From Candidatus Bathyarchaeota archaeon (GTDB lineage: Archaea; Thermoproteota; Bathyarchaeia; Bathyarchaeales; Bathycorpusculaceae): a DNA stretch of 64,000 nt. Positions within the stretch are counted from its first letter, which is position 1. Each line of letters begins with the position of its first letter. The stretch covers positions 1-64,000 of the forward strand of contig JAOZHW010000011.1 in assembly GCA_026014685.1 (NCBI GenBank), in the 5' to 3' direction. Made by a program: the position numbers and the translations under genes. Shown here in pieces: positions 10,122-13,309 of this stretch. Below the pieces are notes generated by a model. The model was not told where the DNA came from. It searched no databases and was given only the letters and a program-made list of their open reading frames with translations.

Positions 10122-12041
10122 TTATTTGACTTTGTAGTCTTCTGAGTCAACCACGTTATCGCCTGATGGGCCACCCTGCTCGGGTCCGCCTGTAAAGGGT
10201 CCTTGTGGACCTGCTCCGGCTTGTGGACCAGCCTGCTGGCCTCCCTGTGCCTGTTGCTGCTTTGCGGCTTCAGCTGCGGCTTGCTGGTAGACTTTGGTGC
10301 CGACTTCTTGAAGTACCTTCTGTAGCGCGTCTGATTTGGCTTTAACTTGTGCCATGTCGTTGCTTGCTAAGGCGTTTTTGAGTTCTGTTACGGCTGCGTC
10401 GATTTTCGCGGTTTCATCCGTGGAGAGTTTGCCTGCTAAGTCTTGTTTGGTGCGTTCAGCTGTATAGATGAGGCTGTCTGCTGCGTTGCGTGTTTCAGCT
10501 TCCTCTCTCTTCTTGCGGTCTTGCTCTGCAAATTGCTCTGCTTCACGTATGAGGCGTTCTTTTTCTTCTTTAGAGAGTTTGGTTGAGGCTGTGATGGTGA
10601 TTTTGGATTCTTTGCCTGTGCCACGATCTTTAGCGGTTACGTTTAGGATGCCGTTGGCGTCAATGTCAAAGGTCACTTCGATTTGGGGTACTCCTCTGGG
10701 TGCTGGCGGTAGGTCAACGAGGTTAAACATTCCCAACGAGACGTTGTCTGCTGCCATGGCGCGTTCGCCTTGTAAGACGTGGATGGTGACGGCGGTTTGG
10801 AAGTCTGCGGCGGTTGTGAAGATTTGGCTACGTTTGGTAGGGATGGTGGTGTTCTTTTCGAGCACCTTAGTCATGACTCCACCCATGGTTTCAACTCCCA
10901 GCGACAAAGGTGTGACGTCTAACAGTAGCAGGTCTTTTACTTCACCTGTAACTACACCGCCCTGTATGGCTGCACCTATCGCGACGCTTTCCATGGGGTC
11001 GATTCCCCGTTCAGGGGCTTTGCCCAAGATCTGCTCCACGAAACGTTGAACTAAGGGCATTCGGGTCATGCCACCGATTAGGATGATTTTGTCGACTTGT
11101 TGTGGTGTGAGTTTGGCGTCTTCGAGTGCTTTTAGTAGTGTGGGTTTTGTGCGTTCTATGATGGGTTGTGCGAGGGATTCCAGTTTTGTTCTTGTAAGTG
11201 TTAAGTGGAGGTGTTTGGGTCCTGAAGCGTCGGCAGTTAAGAAGGGCAGGTCGATGTCTGTGCTCATCAATGTGGAAAGCTCGATTTTCGCTTTCTCAGC
11301 AGCATCTTTCAATCTAGACATGGCCATGCGGTCGTTTGAGACGTCTACGCCTGTTTGGCGCTTGAACTCTTCGAGGATGTAGCCCATGACTGCTTTGTCC
11401 ACGTCAGTTCCGCCGAGTTGGGTGTCGCCGCTTGTACTAAGTACTTGGAACACTCCTTTGCCGAAATCCATCAGGGTGACATCGTGGGTTCCGCCGCCGA
11501 AACTGAACACGAGGATTTTCATTTCATGCTCAAGTTTGTCGATGCCGTATGCAAGGCAGGCTGCGGTGGGTTCGTTGATGATACGCATAACTTCAAAGCC
11601 CGCGATTTCGCCTGCATCTTTGGTTGCTTGGCGTTGGTTGTCATCGAAGTGTGCGGGAACGGTGATGACGGCTTTGTTCACGGGTGTACCGAGGTAGGTT
11701 TCGGCGTCTTTTTTGATTTTCTGCAGTATGAAAGCTGAGATTTGCTGTGGAGTGTATTCTTTGCCGTGAATGTTGACTTTGTAGTTTGTTCCCATTTTGC
11801 GTTTTATTTCAAAGATTGTTCCTTCAGCGTTGGTGGTGGCTTGCCTCTTTGCAGGTTCTCCGACTAGCAGCTGTCCATCCTTGGTGAAAGCAACTACTGA
11901 GGGAAACATTTTGCCTGCCATCGTGGGTCCTTCGGCGCTGGGGATAACTGTTGCGTGTCCCCCCTCGTATATGGCTGCGGCTGAATTGGTTGTTCCTAAG
12001 TCGATACCTAAGACTTTTTGACTTGTTTTTTGGTTACTCAA
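10122..12041 (-). CDS. dnaK: Hsp70 chaperone DnaK
   Basis: A 639-residue DnaK of normal length. The ATPase domain shows [12 protein letters not shown] at the N-terminus (phosphate loop 1), [32 protein letters not shown] and [10 protein letters not shown]. The substrate-binding domain begins near residue 385 ([14 protein letters not shown]) and the lid ends in a Gln/Gly-rich tail ([12 protein letters not shown]) and an acidic end ([10 protein letters not shown]), not the bacterial EEVD-like ending. Odd: phosphate loop 2 reads [12 protein letters not shown], so the usual Asp of DLGGGTFD is Ser180. The Asp to Ser change at this place in Hsc70 is known to lower ATPase activity. It lies 33 bases after grpE. 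Hsp70 genes in archaea are patchy and are often taken as acquired from bacteria. Confidence 0.97.
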
Positions 12042-12074: not shown

Positions 12075-12596
12075 TTACTTTGATTTTGGTTTGGCTACTC
12101 TAACGATGCTGGGACGCAGCACCTTATCCTTCATCTTGTAGCCCTTCCGGATTTCCTCTAATATCGTGCACTCTTTAGCGTCGTCGCATTCTTCTGCGGC
12201 GATGGCGTTATGGTTTGATGGGTCAAAAACAGTGCCCACTGTGCACTCGATTGGGCAGACCCCTTCTTGCTCAAGGACTTTTTTGAGCTTCTTTAACGTC
12301 ATTTCTACCCCTTCAACGAGAGTTTTCTGCGAGTTATCAGCACACTTTGCAACTTTAACCGCCAACTCTAACTCGTCAACCACGTCAAGTAGCTGGTTGA
12401 TTATGCGTTCGTTACTGTAGCATCTGATTTGTTCGGTTTCTCTGTCGAAGCGTTTTTTGACGTTTTCAAAGTCAGCTTGCAGGTACTTTAGGCGAGTTAG
12501 GTAGTCTTCGGAGCGTTTCTTTTCTGATTCAAGCAGTTTTTCAAAGTCAACAGTTTGGGCTGGTTCCTTGACTTCCTTAGCTTTGTCTTCAGTCAA
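12075..12596 (-). CDS. grpE: Nucleotide exchange factor GrpE
   Basis: A 173-residue GrpE, the ADP-release factor for DnaK. A charged N-terminal region leads into the long coiled-coil helix (SEKKRSEDYLTRLKYLQADFENVKKRFDRE, about residues 25-55), then a helix with LLDVVDELELAV and a C-terminal beta domain (GVCPIECTVGTVFDPSNHNAI, KGYKMKDKVLRPSIVRVAKP) that docks on the Hsp70 ATPase domain. It sits between an upstream regulator-like gene (19-base gap) and dnaK. No dnaJ is seen next to them. Confidence 0.95.
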   Translation of the reverse strand: MTEDKAKEVKEPAQTVDFEKLLESEKKRSEDYLTRLKYLQADFENVKKRFDRETEQIRCYSNERIINQLLDVVDELELAVKVAKCADNSQKTLVEGVEMTLKKLKKVLEQEGVCPIECTVGTVFDPSNHNAIAAEECDDAKECTILEEIRKGYKMKDKVLRPSIVRVAKPKSK

Positions 12597-12615
12597 CTTT
12601 TTCCCTCTGGTTGGT

Positions 12616-13017
12616 TTATGTTATGTATTTTTGTTTCTTTGTGTTTTGGTTGTTGGTTTGTTCAGGTGGTAGAGCGGGGTTTTGTTTTGTTGGATCGCAT
12701 ACAGCGATGCTGGTTTGTTCGACGAGTTTTTTGAAGATGATTTCAGCGACTAGGTCTCCGACGGATTCTTCTTTTAGTTCTGAGTTGAATGCGTGTTTTT
12801 TGAAGGATTCGACGATTTCGTTTTTGTCGATGGTTACGTTTTGGCTGGTGTCGCCTGTGCTCCAGGCGGTGGACATGACTTTGTGGCCTAGCTCGATGAA
12901 TATATTGACCATTGTGGTGTAGTCTATGTCTAGTGGTGCGTCTCCTGTTAGGAATCGTCCTTTTGTGAGTAGGATTTTTTTGTCGTTTTCAGGGGTTACA
13001 GTTAGGCTTCTTCGCAT
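12616..13017 (-). CDS. Putative ribbon-helix-helix regulator of the grpE-dnaK operon
   Basis: A 133-residue protein from the ATG at 13017, which has AGGTGA five bases upstream; the frame also extends to a GTG at 13047 but that would lie in the operator. Residues 1-45 (RRSLTVT strand, then DKKILLTKG helix and DYTTMVNIFIELG helix) fit a ribbon-helix-helix fold by eye; residues 60-100 are a second helical region and the tail is Asn/Gln/Pro-rich. It is the first gene of an apparent operon with grpE and dnaK (19-base gap to grpE). Two copies of a palindrome flank its promoter. The setting suggests a repressor of the Hsp70 system. The fold and function are inferred; I do not recognise the family. 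Confidence 0.6.
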   Translation of the reverse strand: MRRSLTVTPENDKKILLTKGRFLTGDAPLDIDYTTMVNIFIELGHKVMSTAWSTGDTSQNVTIDKNEIVESFKKHAFNSELKEESVGDLVAEIIFKKLVEQTSIAVCDPTKQNPALPPEQTNNQNTKKQKYIT

Positions 13018-13075
13018 ATTTTCACCTGTGCATACGCGGTTTTGCACCGCTTCACCTTATGCACACCTGTGCATA
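13017..13075 (-). promoter_or_regulatory. Two operator sites in the grpE-dnaK operon promoter
   Basis: Site 1 at 13058-13075, TATGCACACCTGTGCATA, is a perfect 8+8 bp inverted repeat with a 2-nt centre. Site 2 at 13017-13034 keeps one perfect half (TGTGCATA) and a degenerate other half, and overlaps the start codon. The centres are 41 bp apart, about four helical turns, so the sites face the same side. On the minus strand a TATA-like TTTATAAG at 13081-13088 places the transcript start inside site 1. Confidence 0.65.
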
Positions 13076-13244
13076 CATGCTTATAAACATTCTCCGCATT
13101 CAACAAGCAAAACAAACATACCCGCCCTAAATAAGAGGCAGGAACAAAAAAACCCCACAAACACTCCTAAAATTATCGAACAGTCGCATTATTTGGTGGA
13201 AATGGCTTTCCTCCACCAGCTGGAAGGGATTCTTCTCATGGCTA

Positions 13245-13267
13245 CTTTAAATAAGGGAGGGGAGGTA
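13245..13267 (-). repeat. Dispersed element, copy 2
   Basis: On the minus strand this reads TACCTCCCCTCCCTTATTTA then AAG, one base different from copy 1. The flanking GCGTGG block (13282-13287 on plus) lies 14 bases beyond the GGTA end, the same spacing as in copy 1 at 1540-1581. It is in the 290-base gap downstream of the Toprim gene. A small hairpin (GGTGGA/TCCACC, 13195-13216) lies next to it. Confidence 0.6.
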
Positions 13268-13309
13268 CACACTGAGACGTCGCGTGGTTTTCAACATGAC
13301 AAAGTCTGT

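Follow-up and report, generated by a model that had tools for sequence, protein, structure and literature searches.

In a genome of Candidatus Bathycorpusculum (Bathyarchaeia), the grpE-dnaK operon starts with a gene for a protein of 133 residues, which raises the question of whether this protein controls the operon that it heads. The window, i.e. the whole stretch of DNA that was analysed, comprises 64,000 nucleotides of this genome. In our judgement, the chances are slightly better than even that the protein is a genus-specific autoregulator, which would bind DNA at this single locus, repress the grpE-dnaK operon and respond to heat.

The operon and its distribution

The three genes lie on the minus strand in the order candidate regulator gene (12616-13017), grpE (12075-12596; Pfam PF01025, E=5e-45) and dnaK (10122-12041; Pfam PF00012, E=7e-221; NCBIfam TIGR02350 above the cut-off), and are separated by 19 and 33 bp. 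The operon described in the initial annotation, including both gaps, was borne out by the open reading frame coordinates and the Pfam matches. An N-terminal extension or upstream frame from the GTG at 13047 was also considered and rejected; stops break this frame in many orthologues, and therefore the ATG at 13015-13017 was retained as the start.

Orthologues of the 133-aa protein were found in 24 of the 32 genomes of the genus, with identities of 62-91% in the orthologue search and 58-91% over the full alignment, and all 24 are located directly upstream of grpE-dnaK. None was found in the other genera of the family (59 genomes), and a profile search of 257 genomes of the class revealed none elsewhere. 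Four congeners (G015, G016, G027 and G029) have kept grpE with neither the gene nor the palindrome described below at the grpE promoter; dnaK adjoins grpE in the three of them in which the stretch was read (all except G029). The same was observed at 15 loci of 10 other genera, where grpE has neither the gene nor the palindrome, and dnaK is adjacent wherever the stretch was read. Three more gene-lacking genomes of the genus, which are 60-82% complete, have no grpE at all. G032 also lacks the gene and has only a divergent partial grpE; the partial GrpE (G032:C122:4657-4953, L089) is encoded on a contig of uncertain origin.

The GrpE+DnaK tree recovers the genus as one clade, with the gene-lacking species spread across it. 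This pattern suggests that the gene and the palindrome were lost jointly and repeatedly, although support is weak at several deep nodes. Gene order and palindrome, whose lack of conservation in relatives would have refuted the initial annotation, are both kept in the genus. The co-occurrence of gene and palindrome is no proof that the protein reads the palindrome, because the loss of a gene would be expected to take its own promoter with it. Several grpE promoters outside the genus (e.g. L059, L063, L066 and L070) share another upstream signature, approximately ATATATTTCTGTTTGTA...GCTA, which is possibly another control element.

The promoter and its inverted repeat

The promoter elements follow one another in the order of TATA box, inverted repeat and a conserved block at the transcript start. 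The TATA box TTTATAAG (also given as CTTATAAA) is located at 13080-13087 on the minus strand, at about -30 to -23. The operator-like inverted repeat TATGCACA-CC-TGTGCATA occupies 13058-13075 (about -18 to -1; no strand assigned), and the conserved block AGGTGAAGCGGTGCA occupies 13043-13057. The site had been described as a perfect 18-bp palindrome over the expected transcript start. The site (TATGCACACCTGTGCATA) is real; its perfection is that of two 8-bp arms around a 2-bp CC spacer and does not extend over 18 bp. Its position is near the start, between the TATA box and +1, and it ends one base before the transcript start predicted from the TATA box. Apart from the half-copy described next, the whole window contains no other full-length site with three or fewer mismatches (0.04 expected).

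A degraded second copy had also been proposed at a distance of 41 bp. A repeat is indeed present at that distance (13017-13034), in the form of the 13-bp direct repeat CACCTGTGCATAC, which corresponds to one half-site and not to a second palindrome. The only part kept in relatives is the Shine-Dalgarno sequence GGTGA (13022-13026, minus strand), and most orthologues read CTGGTGA. The half-site is therefore probably not a second operator.

In the alignment of 23 promoters, anchored on the +1 block, the TATA box almost always occupies -30 to -23, and its spacing from the inverted repeat and the +1 block is almost fixed among the orthologues. Inverted symmetry peaks at centre -10, with 4.48 of 7 pairs complementary per sequence; no other centre tested scored as high. 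Some species have changes on both sides of the repeat; for example, T-A is replaced by A-T at pair 6, and C-G by T-A at pair 4 in L039. A strong constitutive promoter with incidental symmetry and no regulator would agree with the left arm being degenerate in about half of the species; in those from termite guts, this arm decays by transitions and the right arm TGTGC is fixed. However, about half of the species have perfect 5+5 arms, with compensating outer changes and divergent flanks, and the symmetry at -10 stands out from that at all other centres, so that a constitutive promoter is quite improbable. The conserved inverted repeat between the TATA box and the start was found only where the 133-aa gene is present, which is the layout of an autoregulatory repressor.

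There are two copies of the exact core GCACANNTGTGC in the genome, one at this locus and one inside the coding sequence of a DNA polymerase. The dnaJ gene is located elsewhere in the genome, and its promoter has neither the palindrome nor AGGTGAAGCGGTGCA. A wider regulon was rejected, since the second exact palindrome lies in the DNA polymerase gene, and the near matches either fall within open frames or lack an obvious TATA box in their vicinity. The predicted target of the regulator is this locus alone, because the other copy of the core is within a coding sequence and the dnaJ promoter lacks the core. A separate repeat of about 45 bp (TTWAATAAGGGAGGGGAGGTA...GAGANGTCGCGTGGTT), also intergenic, is found in the window at 13247-13292 (plus strand) and from 1579 to about 1535 (minus strand), and also upstream of dnaJ at L144:1303-1348. 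Its core was not found in the loci of relatives that were compared, and the copy at 13247 has no Rfam match.

The 5' leader of the transcript

A 5' leader of 40 nt, its start inferred, is predicted at 13018-13057 on the minus strand; nearly all orthologues keep the TATA-to-AGGTGAA spacing at about 29 nt. Its first 15 positions (+1 to +15, minus strand) are the near-invariant block AGGTGAAGCGGTGCA, with mostly 1.7-2.0 bits per column, which is better conserved than the palindrome. The block supplies the 5' arm of a hairpin (GCGGT-GCAAA-ACCGC, 13036-13050, minus strand), whose arms co-vary. The hairpin was assessed by folding against shuffles and by arm-swap permutation. When the variable part was shuffled, all 24 leaders folded below the mean of the shuffles. 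Swapping the left arms among species raised the total energy (observed -263.6 versus -240.0, sd 5.1; permutation p ~0.0005, with the kinship of the sequences still in the test). RNAalifold found no consensus structure on the plain alignment of the leaders, probably due to a register shift of the right hairpin arm, and there was no Rfam match. A second genomic copy of AGGTGAAGCGGTGCA is located inside a kinase-like open reading frame. An RNA thermometer was rejected; the opening of the Shine-Dalgarno sequence is close to one half at 25, 37 and 50 °C, with hardly any change, and there is no clear sequestration either.

The conserved stem-loop at the transcript start probably tunes mRNA stability or translation. 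The leader also bears on an alternative in which the protein binds RNA: it would recognise the +1 to +15 block and the hairpin and set how stable the operon mRNA is or how well it is translated, and the upstream repeat would also be read by the protein or be secondary. The better conservation of the block than of the palindrome, the co-varying arms and the folding of all 24 leaders agree with an RNA-binding autoregulator. Nevertheless, we consider it unlikely, given the lack of an RNAalifold consensus on the plain alignment, the half-open Shine-Dalgarno sequence at every temperature tested, which indicates neither a thermometer nor clear sequestration, and the absence of a recognised RNA-binding domain in the protein.

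The 133-residue protein

The protein is composed of a conserved N-terminal block (residues 1-52), a helical middle, a variable Q/P-rich linker and the C-terminal tail KKQKYIT, in which Tyr131 is invariant across the aligned orthologues. Searches of Pfam, NCBIfam and PHROGs gave no match, with no credible family for any of the 24 orthologues, and a sequence search of the PDB revealed no solved relative. No credible viral, phage or plasmid relatives were found, and comparison of the two protein halves gave no signal of a tandem duplication. Two AlphaFold runs yielded mostly helical models with a mean pLDDT of about 51, and the Foldseek search with the low-confidence model returned no significant match, only meaningless ones.

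The initial annotation noted that the protein looks like a ribbon-helix-helix DNA binder, and proposed an HMM search and structure prediction as a check. The resemblance found no support in either: there is no family or profile match, and both AlphaFold models are of the low pLDDT given above. A true ribbon-helix-helix repressor (MetJ/Arc fold) is a question of fold, compatible with an autoregulatory role, and might be regarded as possible but rather doubtful. By eye, RRSLTVTPE resembles a strand with alternating polar and hydrophobic residues, followed by two helices. An orphan protein from the Nitrososphaeria-like genome G364 (L155:2817-3248, minus strand), of the same phylum and another family, also shares the N-terminal 44 residues (34% pairwise identity; profile E=2.5e-5), which marks this block as a separable domain. 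However, when the profile was compared with ribbon-helix-helix proteins encoded in this genome, the score was no better than chance and the register was wrong, and AlphaFold did not build this fold, at low confidence. The orphan differs in its C-terminal part, and it adjoins an apparent transposase frame and succinate dehydrogenase-like genes instead of an Hsp70 operon; no relatives of it were found in 300 genomes of its order.

The protein might instead be a DnaK co-chaperone or adaptor that is co-transcribed by chance, with the palindrome read by another, unlinked transcription factor. Its place within the grpE-dnaK operon, a flexible Q/P-rich linker and a conserved tail that could bind a chaperone, and the failure to find a DNA-binding domain are in line with such a role. 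However, the joint loss of gene and palindrome in four congeners is unexpected if control of grpE-dnaK through the palindrome lay with an unrelated factor, and dnaJ is present elsewhere, so that there is no obvious co-chaperone gap. A co-chaperone is therefore also improbable.

For the preferred autoregulator, the following mechanism may be proposed. A dimer would bind the inverted repeat GCACA-NN-TGTGC, which follows the TATA box and precedes the transcript start, and once bound would block the recruitment of RNA polymerase. In this way it would keep its own gene repressed together with grpE and dnaK. Stress would lift the repression, perhaps by titration of DnaK bound to the flexible, conserved C-terminal tail, or by direct inactivation. 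The resulting transcript would begin with the conserved stem-loop, which would tune its stability or translation. In this mechanism, we infer the binding of the protein to DNA, the repression, the stress signal and whatever part the tail may play, and the only pointer to a heat-shock role of the protein is the linkage to grpE-dnaK. The lack of a recognised DNA-binding domain and the decay of the left palindrome arm in termite-gut species count against the autoregulator. The initial proposal of an undescribed heat-shock repressor of an archaeal Hsp70 system is supported in part, by the conserved gene order and operator-like promoter, the joint absence of gene and palindrome, the lack of HrcA and the failure to match any named regulator family; its ribbon-helix-helix assignment found no support, and the second copy is not conserved.

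Comparison with known heat-shock regulators

In bacterial hrcA-grpE-dnaK operons, the regulator HrcA is encoded first, an inverted repeat is located at the transcript start, and autorepression is presumed. The operator of HrcA is CIRCE, TTAGCACTC-N9-GAGTGCTAA. The present locus is similar in that a regulator gene heads the grpE-dnaK operon, with an inverted repeat at the transcript start and presumed autorepression; whereas its operator-like site TATGCACA-CC-TGTGCATA (GCACA-NN-TGTGC) is not CIRCE, and the protein has only 133 aa and no HrcA match. HrcA was absent from the 32 genomes of the genus (7 of 14 controls were positive in the same search), and Pfam gave no match of the HrcA domain PF01628 to the protein. 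The earlier statement that the protein is not HrcA, CtsR or Phr agrees with the absence of any Pfam or NCBIfam transcription-factor match among the 24 orthologues. The resemblance to HrcA/CIRCE is one of layout, not of sequence.

Among archaea, the closest systems are those of Phr (Pyrococcus) and HSR1 (Archaeoglobus), which are dedicated heat-shock transcription factors. Family searches revealed no sequence relation to them, and the linked target here is grpE-dnaK; whereas the Phr/HSR1 regulons include a small-Hsp gene and an AAA+ ATPase gene (PMC10653856). Such dedicated regulators are known solely from some Euryarchaeota, and how Crenarchaeota regulate these genes is described as elusive (PMC10653856). 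The control of heat-shock genes in archaea outside the Euryarchaeota has likewise been called elusive (PMC10653856). A conserved protein heading the operon together with an operator-like site provides a specific and cheaply testable candidate, which would demonstrate that an Hsp70 operon is able to take on a new repressor made within a lineage, arranged as in the case of bacterial HrcA. The conserved +1 to +15 block and the co-varying leader hairpin are new here. It is a tentative idea, and on balance an unlikely one, that this might be the first dedicated stress repressor known outside the Euryarchaeota. Its protein family, an unrelated one, would have arisen in one bathyarchaeal genus and taken over an Hsp70 operon; DNA operator and structured RNA leader would work there in tandem, and the arrangement would have converged on that of HrcA/CIRCE.
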